10,966 nt of DNA, taken from assembly GCA_016870235.1 (NCBI GenBank), contig VGCB01000035.1:1-10966 (forward strand), written 5' to 3'. Made by a program: the position numbers and the translations under genes. The DNA comes from Actinomycetota bacterium. Its GTDB lineage: Bacteria; Actinomycetota; Thermoleophilia; Gaiellales; Gaiellaceae. Shown one piece after another: positions 1 through 10,865 of the stretch. Every line of letters begins with the position of its first letter. The stretch's first letter is position 1. The notes under the pieces were generated by a model. That model saw nothing but the letters and a program-made list of their open reading frames with translations. It did no database searches and was not told the origin of the DNA.

Positions 1-1041
1 CAACTTGGCGATCTCACCTACCTCGAACACACGAAGCAGACCCTCGACGAGTTTGCTCGTGAGTGGTGGGAGCGGTACGCCACGACAGAGCTGGCTCCGA
101 GGACACAGAAGCTCTACGCCCAACTGTGGGATCGACACATTCTCCCTCGCCTCGGCACCCAGCAGCTCCGGCAGCTGACACCGAACCTCGTCGCCGGATT
201 CCAGGAGGATCTCCGCATTGCCGGCGTCGGTGAGCCGACGATCCGCAAAGCACTTGCCCTCCTCCAGTCCGTCTGCCGTGAGGCAGTCACCTGGGGCCGG
301 ATCACAGCGAACCCGGTCAAGCCGGTCAAGAAGCGATCACAACACCGCACGCGGAGCGTTCGACCGCTGATGCCTGAGGCAGTCGAGCGGCTGCGGCTTT
401 ACACATCCTCCGAAAGGGACGCGACGCTCATCTCACTGCTTGCCTACGCCGGACTTCGCCCCAGCGAAGCTCTTGCGCTCACATGGGCGGACATGGGCGA
501 ACGCACGATTCTCGTCGAGCGGGCTCTGTCTCTCGGTGAGATCAAGGAAACCAAGACCAGGTCGACACGCACCGTAAAGATGACCGGCAGCCTCAAGGCT
601 GATCTGCACAAGCTGAAGATCCTGAACGGGATCCCGAACCAGGACACCCCGATCATTCCTGCGCACGACGGCGGCTATTGGGGTGACGACGACTGGCGCA
701 ATTGGCGCCGGCGAGTGTTCCAGCCCGCTGCCAAGGCGAGCGGGCTCGACGGGATCCGGCCGTACGACTTGCGGCACTCATTCGTGTCGCTGCTGATCGC
801 CGAAGGACGCAGCATCGTCGAGATCGCCCGGCAGGCCGGCCACTCGCCGACCATGACCCTCAACACCTACGGCCACGTCTTCGACGAGCACGACGGCGGC
901 CTGGGCCGCCCTGCCGAAGAGGTCATCCGCGACGCCCGCATCAAGACCAAGCGGGAACTCCGTGCACCCTCCGTGCACCCTCGAACCGACCCAGTTGGCT
1001 CAGAAGGCGACGAAGCTCTGCACTTTGCAGAGCTTTTGTAG
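1..1041 (+). CDS. Site-specific tyrosine recombinase (phage-type integrase), 5' end cut by window edge
   Basis: Catalyses integration and excision of a mobile element. The frame is open from base 1, so the true start lies upstream; the ATG at 370 is internal. The visible N-terminal part (about the first 110 residues) resembles the helical core-binding domain, including a WERY/APRTQKLY segment and a helix ending in NPVKPVKK. The catalytic domain follows: Arg in AYAGLRPSEAL, Lys in the beta-hairpin KTRSTRTVKM, the box-II segment PYDLRHS (Tyr in place of the more usual His, Arg present), His in AGHS, and the nucleophile Tyr in NTYGHVF. The DNA is less GC-rich than its right-hand neighbours, which fits horizontal acquisition. 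The stop TAG (1039-1041) abuts a convergent tRNA-Thr, the classic arrangement for an integrase beside its attachment site. The tail after the nucleophile contains an 11-bp tandem duplication (961-982) that sets the reading frame of the last residues. Family assignment is secure; the element type is unknown. Confidence 0.93.
   Translation, partial: QLGDLTYLEHTKQTLDEFAREWWERYATTELAPRTQKLYAQLWDRHILPRLGTQQLRQLTPNLVAGFQEDLRIAGVGEPTIRKALALLQSVCREAVTWGRITANPVKPVKKRSQHRTRSVRPLMPEAVERLRLYTSSERDATLISLLAYAGLRPSEALALTWADMGERTILVERALSLGEIKETKTRSTRTVKMTGSLKADLHKLKILNGIPNQDTPIIPAHDGGYWGDDDWRNWRRRVFQPAAKASGLDGIRPYDLRHSFVSLLIAEGRSIVEIARQAGHSPTMTLNTYGHVFDEHDGGLGRPAEEVIRDARIKTKRELRAPSVHPRTDPVGSEGDEALHFAELL
961..982. 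repeat. Perfect 11-bp tandem duplication in the integrase tail
   Basis: The unit cgtgcaccctc occurs at 961-971 and again at 972-982 with no mismatch. Eleven is not a multiple of three, so gaining or losing one copy moves the integrase C-terminus into another frame. With one copy the frame would run on to a TGA at 1101-1103, across the tRNA. With two copies it stops at 1041. Confidence 0.85.
1013..1037 (+). terminator. Hairpin with short T-tract at the integrase 3' end
   Basis: The arms aagctctgca (1013-1022) and tgcagagctt (1026-1035) are perfect 10-bp inverted repeats with a 3-base loop. The run tttt at 1034-1037 partly overlaps the stem. The layout suits an intrinsic terminator for the integrase message, though the T-tract is short and the hairpin lies within the last codons. 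Read on the other strand it sits just past the 3' end of the tRNA, so it could instead help end or process the tRNA transcript. It could also be an integrase-binding arm. The structure is plain; the role is inferred. Confidence 0.45.
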
Positions 1042-1083
1042 AGCCCTCTGACGGACTCGAACCGTCGACCCCCTCCTTACCAT
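1042..1083. other. Probable attachment-site core within the 3' half of tRNA-Thr
   Basis: Tyrosine integrases commonly recombine within the anticodon or T-arm region of tRNA genes and leave a duplicated 3' segment at the far end of the element. Here an integrase gene abuts the 3' end of tRNA-Thr, so the stretch from the anticodon loop to the tRNA 3' end is the natural candidate core. No second copy is present in the window; it would be expected upstream of base 1. Inferred from arrangement only. Confidence 0.4.
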
Positions 1084-1114
1084 GGAGGTGCTCTACCGAC
1101 TGAGCTAAGAGGGC
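1042..1114 (-). tRNA. tRNA-Thr (anticodon GGT)
   Basis: The reverse strand folds as a standard 73-nt cloverleaf. The acceptor stem is GCCCTCT/AGAGGGC with discriminator U, the D stem GCTC/GAGC with an 8-base loop, and the anticodon stem CCTCC/GGAGG. The 7-base loop ATGGTAA puts GGT at positions 34-36 and reads the Thr codon ACC. The variable loop has 5 bases, and the T stem GACGG/CCGTC closes the loop TTCGAGT. CCA is not encoded. The gene is intact and its 3' end lies directly against the integrase stop codon, so if an element integrated here it restored the tRNA 3' half. Confidence 0.97.
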
Positions 1115-2082: not shown

Positions 2083-2565
2083 TCAGAGGAGCGCGTCGAT
2101 CTGGCCGGCCGCGAGCCGCATCCCCTCCTCCATGCCCATCGCGGCCAGCTGCTCGAGCGCCTCGAGGCTCGGGAACCGCGACAGCGTCGTCATCGTCGTG
2201 CCGCCGTCGGGCCGTGCGACGAGCGTGACCGTGATCTCGACCGTCGGCATCTCCGGGTTCGGCGCACCTGCCTCGTCGGCGAAGCCGTCCTCGAAGACGA
2301 GCCGCGTCGGCGCGTCCACCTCGACCAACCGCCACCAACCTCCGTGGCGGTCACCCTCGGGGCCGGTCATCACGTAGGCGACGCGGCCGCCGGGCCGGAG
2401 GTCGTGATCGACCACGGTCGCCGGATAGGTCGGCGGGCCCCACCAGCGCTCGAGCTTCCGCGGGTCGGCCCACACCTGCCAGACCGCCTCGACCGGGGCG
2501 TCGAAGTCGGCGGTGAGGGTCAGGGTCAGCGCCTGCGGGTCCTTGACGATGCTCGTCACGGTCAT
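2083..2565 (-). CDS. SRPBCC / AHSA1 (START-like) domain protein
   Basis: A 160-residue protein of the AHSA1 branch of the SRPBCC fold, a helix-grip barrel with a hydrophobic ligand cavity. Typical signatures are FDAPVEAVWQVWADP near the N-terminus, KLERWWGPP, the strand segment DLRPGGRVAYVMTGPEG, WWRLVEVDAPTRLVFEDGF, and a C-terminal helix ending GMRLAAGQIDALL. It starts inside the end of the upstream ArsR gene: ATG and TGA share the four bases ATGA (2562-2565). A Shine-Dalgarno sequence GAGGAG on the minus strand (2573-2578) lies 7 bases ahead, so translation is probably coupled. ArsR plus SRPBCC pairs are a common bacterial operon, but their ligand is generally unknown. Some relatives in the wider fold act in polyketide or lipid chemistry; nothing here points to a specific substrate. 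Confidence 0.92.
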   Translation of the reverse strand: MTVTSIVKDPQALTLTLTADFDAPVEAVWQVWADPRKLERWWGPPTYPATVVDHDLRPGGRVAYVMTGPEGDRHGGWWRLVEVDAPTRLVFEDGFADEAGAPNPEMPTVEITVTLVARPDGGTTMTTLSRFPSLEALEQLAAMGMEEGMRLAAGQIDALL

Positions 2566-2912
2566 CGGTCTGCTCCTCGGTCGGGGTCGGCGAGAACGGC
2601 TTCGATCCGGTCGACGCGGTCGCGCCAGACGACCTCGAGCTCGTCGAGCAGCCGCCGTGCGCGACGAATCGCCTCCGCGTTCCCGCGTACGAGCCGCTCG
2701 CGCCCGCGCCGCTCCTTCGTCACGAGCTCGGCACGCTCGAGCACCGCGACGTGCTTCTGGATCGCGGCGAAGCTGACCGGATAGTGTCGTGCGAGGCCGG
2801 AGACGGTGACGTCGGCGCGAAGCACGCGCGCGAGGATGTCGCGGCGGGTCGCGTCGGCCAGCGCCTGGAAGACGCGATCCGCATGCCCGGCCTCGAGACA
2901 ACATACAACCAT
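2562..2912 (-). CDS. ArsR/SmtB-type winged-helix transcriptional repressor
   Basis: A 116-residue regulator. The opening RVFQALADATRRDIL is typical of the family. The helix-turn-helix runs through VSGLARHYPVSFAAIQKHVAVLERAELV, followed by the wing KERRGRERLV and a C-terminal dimer helix. The ELCVCDL-type cysteine metal site of classical ArsR proteins is absent, so this is unlikely to be a metal sensor. It belongs with the regulators paired with SRPBCC proteins. The ATG at 2912 is the only sensible start because an in-frame TAG stands directly before it (2913-2915). This gives an unusual N-terminus (MVVCCLEAGH). The start codon lies inside a perfect dyad (2900-2925), which suggests the protein represses its own promoter by binding over the start site. 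It is the first gene of a two-gene operon and is divergent from the cyclase fusion, 73 bases away. Confidence 0.92.
   Translation of the reverse strand: MVVCCLEAGHADRVFQALADATRRDILARVLRADVTVSGLARHYPVSFAAIQKHVAVLERAELVTKERRGRERLVRGNAEAIRRARRLLDELEVVWRDRVDRIEAVLADPDRGADR
2573..2578 (-). promoter_or_regulatory. Ribosome binding site for the SRPBCC gene
   Basis: GAGGAG on the minus strand lies 7 bases before the ATG at 2565, inside the last codons of the ArsR gene. It is one of the few clear Shine-Dalgarno sequences in the window and supports the overlapping start. Confidence 0.65.
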
Positions 2913-2985: not shown

Positions 2986-5900
2986 ATGGCCGTCGCCACC
3001 GGCGAGCGCCGCATCGTCACCGTGCTGTTCGCCGACATCGTCGGATCGACCGCAATTGCGGAGCAACTCGGCCCGGAGCGCTCGAAGCTCGTCGTCGACG
3101 AGGTTCTGCGACTCATCGGCGCCGAGGTCGAGCGCTTCGACGGAACCGTCGCGCAGCTCGTCGGCGACGAGCTGTACGCGGTCTTCGGCGCGCCGAGGTC
3201 GCACGAGGACGACTCCGAGCGCGCCGTCCTCGCGGCTCTCGCGATTCAGGGCGCGGTCGCCCGCTACGCGGAGGAGGTGGGAGAGGCCTACGGCATCGCG
3301 CTCTCCGTGCGCGTTGCCGTCAACACCGGGCCGGTCGTCATCCAGCCTGAGAGCGACGACCCGTACAACGCGCTCGGGGAGACGGTGAACGTCGCCTCCC
3401 GGATCCAGGAGGTCGCAGACGCCGGGGAGGTCGTCGTCGGCCCGGCGACACGGCTCCAGGTCGCAAGCTTCTTCGAGCTCGAACCGCTCGGCGCGCGCGA
3501 GCTGAAGGGCGTCTCCGAGCGGGTCGACGTGTTTCGCGTCGTCGGCGCGGGCGGTCCTGTTGCGGTTCCGCCTGCGGGGCCGCTCGTCGGTCGCGACTTC
3601 GAGCAGAGTGTCCTCGAGCGCGCGCTCGAGGGCGTCGCCGAGGGCCGCGGCGTCGTCGTCGCCGTCATCGGGGAGCCCGGCATCGGCAAGACGCGCCTCG
3701 TCGCCGAGGCGCGGGCGCGCTTCGACGACCGTGTCCGCTTCGTCGAAGGACGAGCGGTGTCGTACGCGCAGGGCTTCGCCTACTACGTCATCCGCGAGCT
3801 CCTGCGGGACTGGCTCGGCGCCACCGCTGCAACCCCGGAGGCGCGCGTTCGCCTCGAGCTGAAGGCCGCGCTCGCCGGTTCGCTCGGTGGGGACGCCGAC
3901 TCCTCGTACCCGTTCGTCGGCAGTCTCCTCGGCATCGCGCTCGAGCCGGACGCCCAGCAGCGCCTGCGCGAGCTGAGCCGCGAGTCGGTCCAGACCCGGA
4001 CGTTCGAGGTCGTCGCGGAGCTCGTGTGCGAGCTCGCGGCCGACCGCCCGCTCTGTCTCGTGCTCGACGACCTCCACTGGGCGGACGAGTCCTCGCTCGA
4101 CCTGCTCGAGCGCTTGCTCGGCGTCACCGACACCGCCGCCGTGGCCCTCGTCCTCCTCCATCGGACGGAGCGCGAGCACCGTTCGTGGGCTCTCGGCGAG
4201 TTCGCCCGACAGCGCTTCCCGCATCGCTATCGCGAGATCGAGCTGCGACCGCTTCCGAACGACGCGAGCCGCACGCTGGCGACGGCGTTCTCCGGCGCCG
4301 AGCTGCCCGACCGCGTCCTGGACCTCCTGACGGAGCGCGCGGGCGGCAATCCGCTCTTCCTCGAGGAGGCGCTGCGGGACCTCGTCGAGCGCGGCGCTCT
4401 CGAGCGTCGCAACGGGCGCTACGAGCTCGCGGCCGGCGTCGTCGACCTCGTCGTCCCGGCAGTCGTGCAGGGCACGCTGCAGGCCCGTCTCGACCGTCTC
4501 GACCCCGAGAGCCGTCAATTGCTTTCCATCGCCGCGGTCGCCGGGCGCACGTTCGTGCTTCCCCTGCTCGAGGAGCTGATGCCGGCCGCCGTCGTGACGA
4601 CCGCGCTGTCAGAGCTGCAGCGGCTCGACCTCGTCGTCGAGGTGCGGCGCCGGCCCGTCCCCGAGTACCGCTTCCGCCACGGCCTCGTTCAGGAGGCAGC
4701 GTACGCCAGCCTCGTCGAGCAGCGTCGACGGCGGCTCCACCTCGAGGTCGGGGTGGCGCTCGAGCGCCTGACGGCCGAGGCCCCGGAGCGTGACTACGCA
4801 GAGCTCGCGCGGCACTTCGCCGAGGCCGACGACGCCGAGCGGGCCGCCGACTACCTCGTCAGGGCCGGCGACGCCGCCCGGGCCGTCTTCGCCGATCAGG
4901 AGGCTGTTGCGCACTACGAGGCCGCCGGCCGCTTCCTGGCGCGGATCGGCGAGGACGCCCGGATGCGGGAGACGCTGTTCAAGATCGCGCTCGCCCGGCA
5001 CCTGGCGTCCGACTACGCGCGGGCCGAGGACGCGTACGACGAGGCGTTCTGCTGCAGCATCGACGAGCCGACGCAGCTCCCCGCCACGGAGCGGCTGGAG
5101 ACGGCGATGGGACCCATCGCCGATCACGTCCTCGTGCCCGGGCACGTCTACTCGACGGAGACGACCGGTATCGCGGCGCACCTCTTCCGCGGGCTGCTCG
5201 CGGTCGACGCGGACATGAACGTCGTCCCCTCCCTCGCCGACAACATGCGGGTCTCCGCCGATGGGCGCGAGTACCTGTTCCGGCTGCGCGAAGGCATCCG
5301 CTGGAGCGACGGGCACCTGGTCACCGCCGAGGACTTCGCCTGGACGTGGGAGAGGATGCGGGCCGAGGGCGCCGTCACGGCCTTCCTCCTCGAGGGTGTC
5401 GAGGCGCGCGCCCTCGACGAGCGGACACTCGAGGTCCGCGTCGACCGGCCCCGCCCCTCCTTCCCGTATGCGCTCGCCTCGGTCTGGTCCTTCCCGTGGC
5501 CGAAGCACGAGTGGGATCGGCTCGGGCCGGACTGGTGCCGTGCCGAGCCGCTCGTGAGCAACGGTCCGTACGTGCTCGTCGAGCGACGCCCCGAACGGCT
5601 CGTCCTCGAGGCCAATCCGCACTATCGGGGCCGACGCGGCAACATCCGCGAGATCGCGATCGCAACCGACCCGCACGCCGGCGACGAGTTGTTCGACCTG
5701 TGGCGGGAGGGCCGGTACGACGTGCTCGCGGTCAACAGGCCGGTGGACGGCGTCGCCGACACGGAGCCCGAGCCGTTCTCGGAGCTCGGCCTCACGTTCG
5801 TCGGCTTCAACGCCAGCATGGAGCCGTTCAGCAGCGAGGCCGTCCGTCGGGCGGTCGCCCACGCCCTCGACGCGGCGGAGGTCGCCGTCGCCCTCGGTAC

Positions 5901-5991
5901 GTCGTCGACGCCGGCGGTGCGCGGGGGCGCGATCCCTCCGGCGATGCCAGGTCACTCCACGCGCGTACGGATTCCGTACGATCTCGAGTAG
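2986..5991 (+). CDS. Class III nucleotidyl cyclase - AAA/STAND ATPase - SBP family 5 fusion, ended by an internal TAG
   Basis: The visible product is 1001 residues. Residues 1-185 are a class III cyclase domain: metal-binding D17 (FADIVGST) and D61 (VGDELYAVFG), and transition-state N135 and R139 (NVASR). Q57 replaces the lysine usual in adenylate cyclases and N128 sits at the second specificity position, so the substrate is uncertain. An ATPase domain follows with VGRD, Walker A GEPGIGKT (229-236) and Walker B CLVLDDLHWAD (357-367). Next come winged-helix and FRHGLVQEAAY segments (563 onward) and a short TPR-like helical stretch to about 685. From about 692 the protein is a family 5 solute-binding domain (peptide-binding type), with LFRLREGIRWSDG (764-776) and NPHYRG (877-882). 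There is no signal peptide, so this domain should be cytoplasmic. The TAG at codon 1002 cuts it, and homology continues in the same frame to 6492. The ATG at 2986 fits the family N-terminus; ATG 2926 is an alternative. Domain calls are firm; biological role unknown. Confidence 0.9.
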   Translation: MAVATGERRIVTVLFADIVGSTAIAEQLGPERSKLVVDEVLRLIGAEVERFDGTVAQLVGDELYAVFGAPRSHEDDSERAVLAALAIQGAVARYAEEVGEAYGIALSVRVAVNTGPVVIQPESDDPYNALGETVNVASRIQEVADAGEVVVGPATRLQVASFFELEPLGARELKGVSERVDVFRVVGAGGPVAVPPAGPLVGRDFEQSVLERALEGVAEGRGVVVAVIGEPGIGKTRLVAEARARFDDRVRFVEGRAVSYAQGFAYYVIRELLRDWLGATAATPEARVRLELKAALAGSLGGDADSSYPFVGSLLGIALEPDAQQRLRELSRESVQTRTFEVVAELVCELAADRPLCLVLDDLHWADESSLDLLERLLGVTDTAAVALVLLHRTEREHRSWALGEFARQRFPHRYREIELRPLPNDASRTLATAFSGAELPDRVLDLLTERAGGNPLFLEEALRDLVERGALERRNGRYELAAGVVDLVVPAVVQGTLQARLDRLDPESRQLLSIAAVAGRTFVLPLLEELMPAAVVTTALSELQRLDLVVEVRRRPVPEYRFRHGLVQEAAYASLVEQRRRRLHLEVGVALERLTAEAPERDYAELARHFAEADDAERAADYLVRAGDAARAVFADQEAVAHYEAAGRFLARIGEDARMRETLFKIALARHLASDYARAEDAYDEAFCCSIDEPTQLPATERLETAMGPIADHVLVPGHVYSTETTGIAAHLFRGLLAVDADMNVVPSLADNMRVSADGREYLFRLREGIRWSDGHLVTAEDFAWTWERMRAEGAVTAFLLEGVEARALDERTLEVRVDRPRPSFPYALASVWSFPWPKHEWDRLGPDWCRAEPLVSNGPYVLVERRPERLVLEANPHYRGRRGNIREIAIATDPHAGDELFDLWREGRYDVLAVNRPVDGVADTEPEPFSELGLTFVGFNASMEPFSSEAVRRAVAHALDAAEVAVALGTSSTPAVRGGAIPPAMPGHSTRVRIPYDLE

Positions 5992-6036
5992 GCGCGCCGG
6001 CTTCTCGCGGAGGCCGGGTGTCCGGAGGGGCGTGGG

Positions 6037-6492
6037 TTGCCTCCCTTGACGCTCCTCTCTCACACCGCAATGCGCGTCGAGCCGATCGCGGCGGCGCTCC
6101 GCAGCCTGGGAGCAGCAGTCGACGTTCGCGAGACCGGCGACACGATACTGCCGGAGGACGTCGCCCGAGTGCACGTGTGGGTCTCGGGATGGATTGCCGA
6201 CTACCCGGATCCGGAGGGCCTCTTCCACGGGCTCTTCGAGAGCGGCTGGCCGCTCCTGCGCGACCCCGACGCCCTCGACCTGCTCGAGCGCTCGAGGCAC
6301 GAGCGAGACCCGGAGGCGCGGATGGAGACCTTCCACGAGATCGACCGTCTCTGGGTCGGCGAGCGCGCCGCGATCGTCCCGATCCTCTACCATCGCTCGC
6401 TGCTTCTCCGGCGTCCCTGGGTCGACGGCGTGTGGGCGAATCCCATGTGGGGCCTCGTCCTGGACTCGGCCACCGTGCACCGATCCGTCTGA
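6037..6492 (+). CDS. C-terminal lobe of the SBP family 5 domain, separated by the TAG at 5989-5991 (broken gene part or reinitiated fragment)
   Basis: This is the rest of the cyclase fusion in the identical frame. Homology resumes at once after the stop at 5992 with ARRLLAEAGCPEGRG, the usual sequence following (D)PE-K/Q in family 5 binding proteins. It runs through DYPDPEGLFHGLF (1072 onward in read-through numbering) to a TGA at 6490-6492. The full frame would encode 1168 residues apart from the stop. The entry starts at TTG 6037 because GGAGGGG (6024-6030) precedes it by six bases and could allow reinitiation. Those bases also encode a family-typical PEGR, so the match may be chance. If translation does not restart, this is a dead 3' remnant or the visible result of a sequencing error. 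It converges with the dipeptidase gene 71 bases on. Confidence 0.7.
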   Translation: MPPLTLLSHTAMRVEPIAAALRSLGAAVDVRETGDTILPEDVARVHVWVSGWIADYPDPEGLFHGLFESGWPLLRDPDALDLLERSRHERDPEARMETFHEIDRLWVGERAAIVPILYHRSLLLRRPWVDGVWANPMWGLVLDSATVHRSV

Positions 6493-6563: not shown

Positions 6564-7601
6564 CTACGCGGGGAGGGCGCCTCGGAGGAAGCGGAGGAGG
6601 TTTCCGGCCAGGACGCGCTCGAGGACGTCGCCTTCGAGACCGCGGCGTCGGAGGCCGGCCACGAGCTGCGGGAAGTCCTCGGGCCCGCCGAGGCCGTCGA
6701 TCGCCGCGTCCGGTGGGAGGGCCGTGTCCATGAGCGCGTCGGGCGGCGGCCTCCAGCCGAGCGCGCGGGCGATCTGCCGGCCGAAGTCCGAGCCCGAGGC
6801 GACGTGCTCGGTGCCCATCACGGCGAGCGCGTGCTCGACGTGGTCGACGACGCGATCGATGGTCGGGCGCTCCGGATCGATCCCGAGCGGGTGCTGCATG
6901 ACGCCGAGAACGCCGCCCGCCTCCGCGAGCGCGCGGAGCTGCTCGTCGCCGAGGTTCCGCGGATGGTCGTAGACAGCCCGGCAGCCTGCGTGGCTGCACA
7001 GGATCGGTGAGCCGGCCGCGCGCTCGAGGACGTCCCAGAACGTGCGCTCGGAGGCATGGGCGAGGTCGATCGCGACGCCGAGCTTGACGCACAGGTCGAC
7101 GAGCCTGCGGCCGAGCTCGCTGAGCCCGCCGCCGCCGCGCTCGCCGGCGCCGTCCGCGAACGGGTTCCGCCGGTTCCAGGTGAGCCCGACCATCCGCACG
7201 CCGAGGGCCCAGAAGGTCTCGAGGAGCCACGGGTCGTTCCCGAGTGCCTCGGCGCCCTCGAGCGCGAGCAGGAGCCCGATCGGGCCGTCTCGTCCGGCGA
7301 CGTCGAGATCCGCCTTGCGACGAACCGCGATCACCGCACCGGCGTGCAGGCGGAGCGTCCGCTCGAAGGCGGCCACCTGGGTCATCGCCGTCCGCAGCGC
7401 GCCCTCCGGCAGCACGTCCAGGTCGGCATAGAGCGCGCACACCTGGAGCGCGACGCCGCCCGCACGGAGGTTCGGCAGCCAGTGTGCGCCGAAGGGGTCG
7501 TCCTCGCCGCGGCGGAAGCCGCGCACGACGAGCTCGGAGAGGAGATCGCTGTGCGCGTCGGCGATGCCGAGGCCGGGTGGGGCGCTGTGATCGCGGGTCA
7601 C
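6564..7601 (-). CDS. Membrane dipeptidase homologue (peptidase family M19)
   Basis: A 345-residue zinc-dependent dipeptidase. All metal ligands known for the family (renal dipeptidase type) can be placed: H17 and D19 in DAHSDLL, the bridging E115 in LLALEGAEAL, H182 in IDLAHAS, H204 in CSHAGCRA, and D272 in GSDFG. The conserved HPRNL and GGVLGV segments lie between. There is no convincing signal peptide or lipobox, so despite the family name the protein is probably cytoplasmic. M19 enzymes cleave dipeptides, including those with D-residues, and some act on beta-lactams or other amides; the substrate cannot be told here. The GTG at 7601 is chosen because it sits six bases after a -10-like GACAAT; a TTG at 7619 would add six residues. 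The gene is divergent from the MFS transporter and convergent with the cyclase fusion. The long upstream extension of this frame is antisense to the MFS gene and is not coding. Confidence 0.92.
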   Translation of the reverse strand: MTRDHSAPPGLGIADAHSDLLSELVVRGFRRGEDDPFGAHWLPNLRAGGVALQVCALYADLDVLPEGALRTAMTQVAAFERTLRLHAGAVIAVRRKADLDVAGRDGPIGLLLALEGAEALGNDPWLLETFWALGVRMVGLTWNRRNPFADGAGERGGGGLSELGRRLVDLCVKLGVAIDLAHASERTFWDVLERAAGSPILCSHAGCRAVYDHPRNLGDEQLRALAEAGGVLGVMQHPLGIDPERPTIDRVVDHVEHALAVMGTEHVASGSDFGRQIARALGWRPPPDALMDTALPPDAAIDGLGGPEDFPQLVAGLRRRGLEGDVLERVLAGNLLRFLRGALPA

Positions 7602-7607
7602 GCGGGG

Positions 7608-7613
7608 ATTGTC
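7608..7613 (-). promoter_or_regulatory. Candidate -10 box for the dipeptidase gene
   Basis: GACAAT on the minus strand (plus-strand attgtc) ends six bases before the GTG at 7601. The spacing equals that seen at the cyclase and MFS starts. The first base deviates from TAnnnT, so the call is tentative. Confidence 0.35.
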
Positions 7614-7679: not shown

Positions 7680-8873
7680 ATGAACCGGCCGCTCCTTCTC
7701 CTCGGCGTGGCCGGCTTCGTCTCGGGGACGACGATCAGGCTCGCCGAGCCGTTGCTGCCGCGGGTCGCCGAGGACTTCGACGTCGGCGTCGGCCGGGCGA
7801 GCGTGCTGATCTGGGGCTTCGCGATCGCGTACGGGCTCTTTCAGCTCGTCCACGGGCCGCTCGGTGACCGGATCGGCAAGCTGCGCGCGATCACGATCGG
7901 CACGTTCGCAGCCGGGCTCGCGTGCGCGGTGTGCGCGACGGCAACGAGCCTGCCGGCGCTCGCGGCCTTCCGCTTCCTCTCCGGTGTCACGGCCGGCGCG
8001 GTGATCCCGCTCTCTCTCGCCTACGTCGGCGACACGGTCGCGTTCGGCGAGCGCCAGGCCGCCCTGGCGCGGTACCTGATCGGGACGCTCAGCGGTCAGG
8101 TGGCGGGGCCGCTCGTCGGCGGCATCCTCGGCGACGCCGTCGGCTGGCGCGTCACCTTCCTCGTGCCCGGGGTCGCCTTCGTCCTCATCGGCGTACTGCT
8201 GACGCCGACGGCGCGCCGGTCGCCGCGCCCCTCGCGCGACGGCGTCCCGCTCAACCCGCTGCCCGGCTACGCACGGCTCGTCCGGCATCGCCACGTCAGG
8301 GTCGTCCTCGGGGCGACGGCACTCGAGGGAGCGCTGTTCATGGGCATCTACGGGTACCTCGGCGCCTTCCTCCGGCACGAGTACGCCCTGAGCTACACCG
8401 CGATCGGGCTGGTCCTCGCGTCCTTCGGGTGCGGCGGGATCGCGTATGCGGCGGTGGCCAAGCCGCTGATCCGACGACTGGGACAGCCCGGGCTCGTGCT
8501 CGGCGGCGGCGCCGTCGTCGCGGGCGGCCTTCTCGTCGTCGCGCTCGCGCCGAGCTGGATCGCGTGCGTGCCGGCGCTCGCGCTCGTCGGCGTCGGCTTC
8601 TTCATGCTGCACACGACGCTGCAGACGCGCGCCACCGAGATGGCGCCCGAGACGCGCGGCGCGGCGGTCGCCGCCTTCGCCGCCTCGATCTTCTTCGGGC
8701 AGACCGTCGGGGTCGGCATCATCGCGGCGCTGCTCGACGGCGTCGGCTACCGCCCCCTGATCGCGGTCTCGGCGGGCGGGCTGCTCGTCCTTGCCACCTG
8801 GTTCCGCCTCCGCCTGCCGGAGCTCGAGCGCGCTCGTCTCGGTGGGCAGGCGTCAGCCCACGCGGAGAGGTGA
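7680..8873 (+). CDS. Major facilitator superfamily (MFS) transporter
   Basis: A 397-residue integral membrane protein whose hydrophobic pattern suits twelve transmembrane helices. After the first two helices comes the MFS motif A, HGPLGDRIGKLRA (from residue 58), in the cytoplasmic loop 2-3. A motif-C-like GQVAGPLVGGILGDAVGWR follows in helix 5. There is a central cytoplasmic loop rich in Arg and Pro around 176-195, then a second six-helix half. Size and layout resemble drug- or sugar-efflux members (AraJ/Bcr type), which export small molecules by proton antiport. The substrate cannot be inferred. The start ATG is the first in frame and follows a -10-like box. The last 21 bases overlap the end of the convergent GGDEF-EAL gene, so the two transcripts must overlap. 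No dedicated regulator lies beside it. Confidence 0.92.
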   Translation: MNRPLLLLGVAGFVSGTTIRLAEPLLPRVAEDFDVGVGRASVLIWGFAIAYGLFQLVHGPLGDRIGKLRAITIGTFAAGLACAVCATATSLPALAAFRFLSGVTAGAVIPLSLAYVGDTVAFGERQAALARYLIGTLSGQVAGPLVGGILGDAVGWRVTFLVPGVAFVLIGVLLTPTARRSPRPSRDGVPLNPLPGYARLVRHRHVRVVLGATALEGALFMGIYGYLGAFLRHEYALSYTAIGLVLASFGCGGIAYAAVAKPLIRRLGQPGLVLGGGAVVAGGLLVVALAPSWIACVPALALVGVGFFMLHTTLQTRATEMAPETRGAAVAAFAASIFFGQTVGVGIIAALLDGVGYRPLIAVSAGGLLVLATWFRLRLPELERARLGGQASAHAER

Positions 8874-10865
8874 CCGGCCGCCCTGCGGCGTCCGCGATCG
8901 GCGGATATGCGCGACGACCTCGTCGTACTCGAGCGCGGGCGTGAACAGCCAGCCCTGACCGAGCCGGCAGCCGAGCGTGTCGAGGTAGTCCGCCTGCTCC
9001 GCCCGCTCGATCCCCTCCGCGACCACGGTCAGGTCGAGATCCGCGCAGAGCGAGACGAGCGCGCGCAGCAACCGCTCGTCGCGACTGGCCGTGCCGATCG
9101 CGTCGACGAACGGCTTCGCGATCTTCAGCAGGTCGACCGGGAGCCGGCCCAGGTAGCTGAGGGACGAGTACCCGGTGCCGAAGTCGTCGAGCGCGACGCG
9201 GATCCCCTGCGAGCGGAGCGCCTCCAGCCGCTCCACCGCGCCCTCCGGGTCGGAGAGGAGAAGGGACTCGGTGATCTCGACGATGAGACCGTCCGAGCTG
9301 AGGCCGGCGGCAGCCGTCGCCTGGCTGATGAACGCGGGCAGATCCGTCTCCGCGAGCTCCCGCGCCGAGAGGTTGACGGTGACGAAGAAGCCCGGCAGTT
9401 CGAGGTCCCGCCGGATCGCCACGCAGGTCTCCGCCGCCCGCGCGATCGCCCAGCGTCCGAGCTCGACGATCAGCCCCGCCTCCTCGGCGACCGGAATGAA
9501 GTCCATCGGCATCACGAGCCCGCGCGTCGGGTGATTCCACCGGATCAGCGCCTCGGCGCCGATCGTCGCGCGCACCGGCAGCTCGACGATCGGCTGATAG
9601 AAGAGGTCGAGGCCACCGTCGGCGATCGCCCTCCGCAGGTCGGAGCGGATCGCGAGGCGGTCGCGCGAGCGGCTCGAGAGCTCGTCCGAGTACTGCTCGT
9701 GACCGCCCTTGCCGCGGGACTTGACCGCGTACATGGCGAGGTCCGCCCGCTGGATCAGGACATCCGCGTCGATTCCCGGCGTGCTCGTCGCCGTCCCGAC
9801 GCTGACGGTGACCTCGAACTCACGGCCGGCGATGGTGACCGGCTCCCGGAACACCTCGAGCAGCTTCGAGACGATCCGTTGGGCTGCCCGCTCGCCGTGA
9901 TCCTCGACGAGGATCGCGAACTCGTCGCCGCCGACGCGTGCGACCGTGTCGCCCGCCCGCACCGACCGGAGCATGCGCTCCGCCGTCAGCCGGATCAGCT
10001 CGTCGCCGGCTGCGTGGCCGAGGTCGTCGTTGACGTCCTTGAAGTCGTCGACGTCGAGGTACACGATCGCGACGGTCTCCTCGCGGCGCCGGGCGAGGGC
10101 GTGCTCGAGGCGATCGCGGAAGAGGGCGCGGTTCGCGAGGCCGGTGAGCGAGTCGTGGAACGCTTGGAAGGCCAGCTGGCTCTCGAGCTCCTTCCGCTCG
10201 GTGATGTCGACCATGAACCCGCGGCTCACGCGCCGGCCCCCGGCATCGGAGACGACGACCGCGTCGTCGAGGAACCACTTCCAGCGGCCGTCACGCGTGA
10301 GCAGCCGGTACTCCGTCCGCGTCGGCCGGCCTGACTCGATGTGTGCCTGGAACGCGGCTTCGTTGCGTTCCCGATCGTCGGGGTGGATGAGCCTGTCCCA
10401 CATCCCTCCCTCGGCGAGCCAGTCCTCGACGGGGTAGCCGAGGAGCTTCTCGAGCTGCGGGCTCGCATAGACGGTCGGTGCCCCCTCCTCGTCGAGGAGG
10501 ACCGCGTAGGTGACGAGAGGGAGGGTCTCGATGAGCTGCCGGTACTCCTCCTCCCGGGCGAGCCGGCGACCGAGCTCCTCCTGGAGCTCGACCTCGAGCC
10601 GGTCCCGTTCCCGCCGCAGCCTGCGCCCGAAGAGCGACCGGATGCGGTACACGAACACGGCGATCCCGACGACCGCGATCATCCAGGAGATCCCGCCGGC
10701 GATCGTTCCCCAATCGGGCTTCAGCGAGAGCGCGATCGAGCCGCCGACGAGGATCGCCGCGAGCTGCACTGCGAGGCCGCGCGCCGACACGAGCAGCGCG
10801 AACATCGTCGCCATCCACCCGTAGAACGGCACGTAGGCGTGGAGTGCCCCCGTTTTGGTGGACAT
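8853..10865 (-). CDS. Membrane-anchored PAS-GGDEF-EAL cyclic-di-GMP turnover protein
   Basis: A 670-residue protein. Two, possibly three, hydrophobic segments (about 16-48 and 55-73) are followed by a basic, charged helical linker, probably a coiled coil (74-105). A PAS domain spans about 108-225 with IHPDDRE and a terminal MVDITERK. The GGDEF domain (about 228-395) carries an intact GGDEF at 312-316 and a product-inhibition I-site RAGD at 303-306. It should therefore be able to make c-di-GMP from GTP. The EAL domain (about 405-655) keeps EAL (438-440), the Asn in NLSAR, the Glu in EITES, DDFGTGYSS, the Lys in LLKIAKPFV, VAEGIE and the Gln in GQGWLF. It should therefore be able to degrade c-di-GMP. 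The usual KID is KIA here, a change I believe is common in actinobacterial relatives. The PAS domain probably sets the balance; its ligand is unknown. The ATG at 10865 has no visible Shine-Dalgarno sequence. The gene is convergent with the MFS gene. Confidence 0.95.
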   Translation of the reverse strand: MSTKTGALHAYVPFYGWMATMFALLVSARGLAVQLAAILVGGSIALSLKPDWGTIAGGISWMIAVVGIAVFVYRIRSLFGRRLRRERDRLEVELQEELGRRLAREEEYRQLIETLPLVTYAVLLDEEGAPTVYASPQLEKLLGYPVEDWLAEGGMWDRLIHPDDRERNEAAFQAHIESGRPTRTEYRLLTRDGRWKWFLDDAVVVSDAGGRRVSRGFMVDITERKELESQLAFQAFHDSLTGLANRALFRDRLEHALARRREETVAIVYLDVDDFKDVNDDLGHAAGDELIRLTAERMLRSVRAGDTVARVGGDEFAILVEDHGERAAQRIVSKLLEVFREPVTIAGREFEVTVSVGTATSTPGIDADVLIQRADLAMYAVKSRGKGGHEQYSDELSSRSRDRLAIRSDLRRAIADGGLDLFYQPIVELPVRATIGAEALIRWNHPTRGLVMPMDFIPVAEEAGLIVELGRWAIARAAETCVAIRRDLELPGFFVTVNLSARELAETDLPAFISQATAAAGLSSDGLIVEITESLLLSDPEGAVERLEALRSQGIRVALDDFGTGYSSLSYLGRLPVDLLKIAKPFVDAIGTASRDERLLRALVSLCADLDLTVVAEGIERAEQADYLDTLGCRLGQGWLFTPALEYDEVVAHIRRSRTPQGGRSPLRVG

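Follow-up and report, generated by a model that had tools for sequence, protein, structure and literature searches.

A class III cyclase, a STAND-type ATPase and a putative cytoplasmic sensor of SBP family 5 in one actinobacterial reading frame, interrupted by a stop codon

In the window (the whole analysed stretch of 10,966 nucleotides from a contig of a soil-type Actinomycetota bacterium), a single frame, when read through one internal TAG codon, encodes a class III cyclase, then a STAND-type ATPase that carries a brief TPR-like segment, and finally a complete SBP family 5 fold. In our opinion, the intact members of this family are probably one-protein cytosolic sensors, in which ligand closure of the SBP would lead to opening and multimerisation of the STAND part and thereby to pairing of the cyclase, with the SBP serving as an exchangeable cassette. 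The window copy is cut by the stop codon and may be non-functional. The features are as follows.

2986..6492, + strand: whole cyclase-STAND-SBP5 reading frame with one TAG inside (translation and homologs)
3013..3519, + strand: class III cyclase domain, residues 10-178 (Pfam PF00211; residues conserved in 108 homologs)
3154..3156, + strand: Gln57, at the site of the usual substrate-selecting Lys (106/108 homologs)
3367..3369, + strand: Asn128, at the site of the usual substrate-selecting Asp (108/108 homologs)
3559..5085, + strand: STAND core with arm and short TPR-like stretch, residues 192-700 (separate model, pLDDT 91.7; structure matches)
3580..4143, + strand: AAA_16 match, residues 199-386 (Pfam PF13191)
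3670..3693, + strand: Walker A, GEPGIGKT, residues 229-236 (Lys235 in 108/108 homologs)
4057..4086, + strand: Walker B, LVLDDLHWAD, residues 358-367 (Asp362 in 108/108 homologs)
4795..5049, + strand: five TPR-like helices, residues 604-688 (AlphaFold model)
5086..6480, + strand: entire SBP family 5 fold, residues 701-1165, lacking a signal peptide; the stop falls inside it (Pfam PF00496; structure matches)
5953..5955, + strand: His990, signature residue of STAND-linked SBPs (residue comparison)
5989..5991, + strand: in-frame TAG, codon 1002, within the SBP domain (sequence)
6199..6201, + strand: Asp1072, which aligns to the Asp in the ADYNEP motif of OppA (108/108 homologs; OppA alignment)

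The domain order had been proposed in a first-pass annotation, and a Pfam search of the read-through frame confirms it, with Guanylate_cyc at residues 10-178, AAA_16 at 199-386 and SBP_bac_5 at 745-1086, all of them above the Pfam cut-offs. The SBP had been placed at residues 692-1168, in good agreement with this match and with the predicted fold at 701-1165. The expectation that other genomes carry the same order also holds: all three domains are present in 110 of 120 homologous proteins among the matches listed (outputs were counted by hand from the Pfam columns), and within one class the full order turns up in 11 of 199 genomes sampled. It is unusual to find an import protein fused to a cyclase, which might raise the suspicion that assembly or gene calling joined two genes near base 5050; however, given this recurrence, we rule such a chimera out and consider its chance negligible. 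The full-length AlphaFold model has a pTM of only 0.58, and thus does not fix how the domains pack.

The description of the gene as a single frame does not survive. Starting from the ATG at 2986, the TAG at 5989-5991 is met before the terminal TGA at 6490-6492, so that the truncated product has 1001 amino acids, encoded by 2986-5988; indeed the public prediction for the contig is this 1001-residue form (P0001). Hence the window gene may be a dead remnant, whose protein, deprived of the C-terminal portion of the SBP lobe, plays no part in sensing in this bacterium, and we take this seriously while rating it at slightly less than an even chance. The stop codon and the public prediction speak for it. 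Against it, identity to P0002 does not drop past the stop (57% before it, 58% and 69% after), and third-position GC is high on both sides (0.87 against 0.90). Because both coding signal and identity persist beyond the TAG, it is either a nonsense mutation of recent date or an error in the sequence. It is also an ordinary stop here rather than a reassigned codon, since two other genes of the window, for an integrase and a peptidase M19, end in TAG. In any case, a dead remnant would concern the window copy, not the family.

The cyclase retains the metal-binding Asp17 (106/108 homologs) and Asp61 (108/108) as well as the catalytic Asn135 and Arg139 (108/108 each). The Lys/Asp pair by which canonical adenylyl cyclases select their substrate is absent, and Gln57/Asn128 stand in its place. 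Among 48 loci compared, this pair occurs in only two, both of them SBP fusions, and in subfamily B the substrate-selecting pair differs from it. Rv0386 reportedly carries a Gln/Asn pair too, as a known exception to the canonical one. On the residues compared, membership in the class III nucleotidyl cyclases stands despite Gln57/Asn128; since the pair is non-canonical, activity and product are uncertain. As to a role in anti-phage defence, Pycsar cyclases match this part only weakly (best E 3e-9). A TOMM kinase/cyclase fusion model (TIGR03903) covers only residues 5-663 and scores 267.2 bits, well below its cut-off of 705.75.

The ATPase has what is expected of a STAND NTPase, namely Walker A, Walker B with paired acidic residues, and a NOD with winged helix and arm; its best structure matches are 6MFV, MalT and Apaf-1. 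The first-pass annotation saw the SBP as a replacement of the long TPR tail. The SBP does occupy the C-terminus, but the replacement is not complete, as five helices are retained at 604-688, equal to roughly two and a half hairpins of the TPR-like kind.

The C-terminal domain belongs to SBP family 5 by its Pfam match above the cut-off and its whole two-lobed fold. Such proteins normally act outside the cell membrane, and the suggestion that this one lacks a signal peptide and transmembrane segments is borne out: nowhere does the Kyte-Doolittle mean over 19 residues exceed 1.65, a peak that lies inside the ATPase, and no hydrophobic stretch that could mark a signal peptide, lipobox or membrane segment stands before or in the SBP domain. 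Export or membrane anchoring is thus ruled out by the scans of the protein and of its family, with the qualification that the hydrophobicity test discriminates only at a higher cut (when it is relaxed to 1.7, it lets through 21 of the 108 rows of the family and 11 of the 95 others).

Similar SBPs without signal are not confined to this family. A domain of the same type ends STAND proteins whose output is a cyclase, a SARP/BTAD activator or a Ser/Thr kinase, chiefly in Chloroflexota, with up to three SBP stretches per protein; outputs were read by hand from the Pfam columns, and 28 rows with no listed output (most below 1100 residues, some partial) count as unknown. The link between SBP family 5 and SARP/BTAD regulators, which the first-pass annotation had mentioned, was therefore correct, though the pattern proved broader and takes in kinases as well, a third kind of output. 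Compared with 27 other SBPs, those linked to STAND proteins group as a single lineage (support 100/99), and they are marked by His at position 990, where import SBPs have mostly an aromatic residue. For the ATPases of the same proteins a single lineage is rejected (AU p 7e-64), which rules out one common ancestor for the whole proteins; the ATPase of our family branches with those of cyclase-ATPase-TPR and Rv0386-type proteins. These trees use the simple LG+G4 model, and long branches drew a warning from both tree programs. The comparison SBPs were at first 8 from three genomes, which was too thin, then six plasmid SBPs were added and then 14 Chloroflexota frames (two of them partial, L131 and L133), while the long-branched plasmid row L125 was left out of the last tree. 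Because the SBPs form one lineage and their ATPases do not, the trees make the SBP look like a sensory cassette that has been passed between different STAND switches. We give about even chances to a more general statement: a distinct SBP family 5 lineage, marked by His, left export and became a mobile cytoplasmic cassette on STAND proteins driving cyclases, SARP activators or Ser/Thr kinases, and these make up a general, not yet described class that senses cytosolic peptides or similar nutrients.

A cytoplasmic SBP5 regulator as such is not new. According to PMC13060122, SgrR of E. coli and DsvR of Vibrio cholerae are cytoplasmic HTH-SBP5 transcription factors with a C-terminal SBP_bac5 as presumed sensor, and to that extent they resemble the cyclase-STAND-SBP5 proteins, while differing in their N-terminal HTH output and in having neither a STAND ATPase nor a cyclase. 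SgrR is the nearest precedent, but the window protein does not belong to its family: with the NCBIfam SgrR model it scores 25.7 bits, where the cut-off is 476, and the N-terminus is a cyclase, not an HTH (SgrR_N). Among STAND regulators, MalT, AfsR and PH0952 use a TPR array as sensor, whereas here an SBP5 follows the TPR-like hairpins. Cyclase-ATPase-TPR and Rv0386-type cyclase-ATPase-LuxR proteins share the front half of the family but have no SBP. Another, separate class of receptors places SBP5 on the same kinds of output (cyclase, SARP or kinase), yet in these the propeller and the SBP come after a membrane helix (108 of 109 rows), and their SBPs branch apart. The import proteins OppA, DppA, DppE and MppA resemble the family in having the whole fold as well as the ADYNEP-motif Asp; the family SBP differs in lacking a signal peptide and a partner importer and in its His at 990. 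A literature search, judged by title and abstract opening, found no paper on such STAND-SBP proteins.

We therefore keep the proposal of a cytoplasmic sensor acting through an ATPase switch on a nucleotide cyclase. Of the readings considered, it agrees best with the folds, with the conservation of catalytic and Walker residues, with the lack of an export signal and with how widely the family is conserved. The order and folds of the domains, the conservation of their catalytic, Walker and pocket residues, the lack of an export signal and the disagreement of the SBP tree with the ATPase tree were computed directly, and from these we infer the ligand binding, the switching, the multimerisation, the control of the cyclase and its product. 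The C-terminal SBP5 would bind a small, probably peptide-like ligand and close on it; the closure would release the STAND ATPase from a closed resting state; the freed ATPase would exchange nucleotide, open and multimerise; and N-terminal cyclase domains would thereby be paired to make a cyclic nucleotide, most likely cAMP. Class III active sites form between two protomers. Nothing was found that points to an oligosaccharide, which had been named as another ligand.

It could be argued that the SBP no longer senses a small molecule and is a scaffold for a partner protein, or a mere lock that closes the STAND part. Loss of Asp1072 in subfamily B (4/4) fits such a role, as does position 942, which is Asn in 19 of 28 non-STAND SBPs and in only 1 of 13 of subfamily A. 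Nevertheless the two-lobed fold is retained whole, Asp1072 is kept in all 108 subfamily A homologs and in 80 of 94 other STAND-SBP rows (14 have no Asp there), and the cassette is found with three kinds of output, so we regard this alternative as unlikely. We think it still more improbable that the SBP docks to, or is held by, an ABC importer and reports transport rather than free ligand. Free SBPs dock to importers from outside, a side out of reach of a cytosolic domain. Also, the remark that no ABC permease or ATPase gene is nearby agrees with our scan, as none is found among the window proteins scanned with Pfam. A free relative in Rhizobium has adjacent permease and ABC ATPase genes. At 12 surveyed loci importer genes were recognised, among the matches listed, at one only (L117, subfamily B), where an importer of another SBP family, family 3, lies close to the gene; this survey scanned 125 of 135 called frames and the best 25 of 123 and 25 of 88 families, so rare importer genes may be missed. 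Such coupling does have a precedent in MalT, which is restrained by the transporter ATPase MalK (PMC6468293).

Neither these 12 loci (125 of 135 frames, among the matches listed) nor the window gave a hint of the ligand from neighbouring genes. Four loci (L107-L110) share a type III pantothenate kinase, FtsH and, in part, folate and tRNA-synthetase genes, a set that is missing from the window. The integrase (1-1041) sits directly to the left of tRNA-Thr, against its 3' end and on the side facing away from the cyclase, and for this reason we do not see the cyclase gene as cargo of an integrated element.

Much of immunity and regulation depends on STAND proteins, and to our knowledge the inducer is not known for most of the bacterial ones. 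Because SBP5 domains are among the best-understood ligand traps, a STAND protein with an SBP5 sensor would offer a direct route to inducers. Further, an extracytoplasmic transport module appears to have found a second use in the cytoplasm, with three different outputs and in phyla far apart from each other, and the relatives with other outputs point to a little-described kind of bacterial sensor. One row, from Leptolinea, proved to be a peptidase-TM-SBP protein, and falls outside the STAND-linked SBPs in the last tree.

The domain order reported in the first-pass annotation, a cyclase followed by an ATPase and an SBP family 5 domain, holds. In the frame opening at ATG 2986, Pfam assigns all three above cut-off (class III cyclase 10-178, AAA_16 199-386, SBP_bac_5 745-1086), and the order is also present in other genomes. 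A query with the SBP part returned 432 proteins at E <= 1e-5, and 110 of the 120 matches listed, the window protein counted in, have cyclase, AAA_16 and SBP5; the remaining 10 are each shorter than 1000 residues. Where the matches listed have a named organism, it belongs to Gaiellaceae or Actinomycetota. In a survey of 199 genomes of Thermoleophilia, the class of genome G002, with the best three candidates per genome scored, 12 genomes match at E <= 1e-100, 11 with the full order and one (G179) with just the front half. The fusion is both real and common. Automatic annotation labels such proteins 'substrate-binding protein/class 3 adenylate cyclase'.

The same annotation spoke of a single frame, and this part has to be withdrawn: a TAG at 5989-5991 (codon 1002) breaks the frame before the TGA at 6490-6492. 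TAG is an ordinary stop here, since the integrase and peptidase M19 genes of the same window both terminate in it. The coding pattern continues past the TAG: third-position GC is 0.87 beyond it (5992-6489) vs 0.90 ahead of it (5488-5988), and P0002, the nearest homolog, shows no drop in identity (57% over 851-1001, 58% over 1003-1100, 69% over 1101-1168). The window copy is therefore either a freshly broken gene or the product of a sequence error. In the homolog alignment, relatives that lack the stop have ordinary residues at that position.

Where does the SBP domain reside? A 19-residue mean hydropathy of at least 1.9 is reached in 2/108 family rows, near residue 378 within the ATPase, and in 0/95 other STAND-SBP proteins (STAND ATPases fused to SBP5), vs 108/109 propeller-type fusions; with the cut at 1.7 the figures are 21/108, 11/95 and 109/109. 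Among eight ordinary SBP frames from the same genomes, six carry a lipobox-like stretch, and in the other two the hydrophobic stretch is of another kind. The cyclase and the ATPase require cytosolic ATP. We take the SBP domain to be cytosolic.

All 108 full-length homologs share the metal-binding Asp61, the catalytic residues Asn135 and Arg139, Lys235 of Walker A and Asp362 of Walker B; the other metal-binding residue, Asp17, is found in 106, the two misses being gaps. The substrate-selecting pair is Gln57 (106/108) and Asn128 (108/108) in place of Lys/Asp, as in mycobacterial Rv0386; within the 48 cyclase-bearing loci readable there, it is confined to L001 and L002, each of them an SBP fusion. 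Asp1072, which aligns opposite the Asp of the OppA ADYNEP motif, is present in 108/108. Comparison of 12 genome loci separates two subfamilies: A (eight loci, L107-L113 and L118) has the Gln/Asn pair and Asp1072, and B (four, L114-L117, 39-42% identical to the window protein) has Asp combined with either Ala or Gly at the cyclase pair and Gly at 1072. Asp17, Asp61, Asn135, Arg139 and Walker A are retained in 12/12.

According to PMC6468293, STAND proteins are closed and ADP-bound at rest until an inducer releases them, with ATP uptake and multimerisation following; PMC10936776 gives a similar account of AfsR. In our proposal the SBP would shut on its ligand, the STAND module would then open, and the cyclase domains would pair after that opening. 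Class III cyclase active sites arise between two protomers. The chain is coherent, but only its individual parts are shown. Asp1072 and fold kinship favour a peptide-like ligand for subfamily A; that the product is cAMP is our guess.

The SBP and ATPase trees disagree. The SBP tree has 75 rows: 38 STAND-linked SBPs (13 A, 4 B, 8 cyclase, 7 BTAD, 6 kinase), 27 other SBPs, nine propeller-type and one peptidase-linked. All 38 fall on one side of a branch with support 100/99, the outside sample (27 + 9 + 1) being small. In the ATPase tree these proteins group by output, A and B with SBP-less cyclase-ATPase proteins, and a single clade of STAND-SBP ATPases fails the AU test (p 7e-64, 101 rows). The simplest account is that the SBP was handed from one STAND protein to another, or that front halves were swapped before it. 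The STAND-linked SBP lineage has a residue signature of its own, His990 (A 13/13, B 4/4, other STAND-SBP 87/94, import-type 1/28, propeller-type 0/9) and Asn859 (in the same order 13/13, 0/4, 89/94, 3/28, 0/9). Asp1072 (13/13, 0/4, 80/94, 18/28, 9/9) is not peculiar to it. SgrR and DsvR are already described as cytoplasmic regulators that bear an SBP5 domain (PMC13060122). The literature searched, which covered few subscription papers, yielded neither STAND proteins with an SBP5 sensor nor exchange of that sensor between three outputs.

Other outputs carry SBP5 as well. A second frame of G002 reads cyclase-TM-NHL propeller-SBP5 and has 3143 relatives at E <= 1e-5; the Pfam column for the 120 listed gives 33 cyclase, 34 BTAD/SARP and 1 kinase. 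Locus L007 (Caldilineae) has the order BTAD-AAA_16-TPR-SBP5 and 2078 relatives; among the 120 listed, the output reads as BTAD in 61, kinase in 16, both of these in 3 and cyclase in 12, and none is listed for 28; the organisms named among them are Chloroflexota and one Fidelibacterota. In the class of L007, 14/120 genomes match at E <= 1e-120, and each of the 18 such matches sits in a frame of 879-1338 residues, which exceeds the length of a free-standing SBP. P0245, P0292 and P0310 are listed with BTAD, kinase, AAA_16 and SBP5, that is, two outputs and one sensor. SBP5 also occurs in tandem, with three stretches in P0242 (1991 aa) and two in the 1338-aa frame of G310:C455. Another SBP5 fusion, L119 (3928-7422, Leptolinea sp. 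HRD-7 plasmid), combines Peptidase_MA_2 with a following SBP5, a strong membrane segment lying between them near residue 438; in the tree its SBP is close to those of L127 and L128.

The genes around the sensor gene are as follows.
2083-2559, minus strand: AHSA1 protein, divergent from the cyclase gene
2562-2912, minus strand: ArsR-type regulator, divergent from the cyclase gene
6564-7610, convergent on the sensor gene: peptidase M19 (membrane dipeptidase family)
8853-10865, minus strand: PAS-GGDEF-EAL protein

At the start of the ArsR-type regulator there is a perfect inverted repeat of 10 bases (2900-2909 / 2916-2925). It precedes the cyclase ATG by about 60 bases and could be shared by the two promoters. 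A peptide link via the adjacent peptidase M19 is tempting, but with the relatives' loci this peptidase was not among the first 25 neighbour families listed. In the region 1-1114, a phage-type integrase gene, clipped at the window edge, ends at tRNA-Thr (1041-1114, minus strand), on the 3' side of the latter; an integrated element to the left probably has its border at this junction. In L117 (8037-16356), the subfamily B gene is divergent beside a zinc-ribbon cyclase-ATPase-TPR paralog, and family 3 SBP and permease genes lie 2-6 kb downstream.
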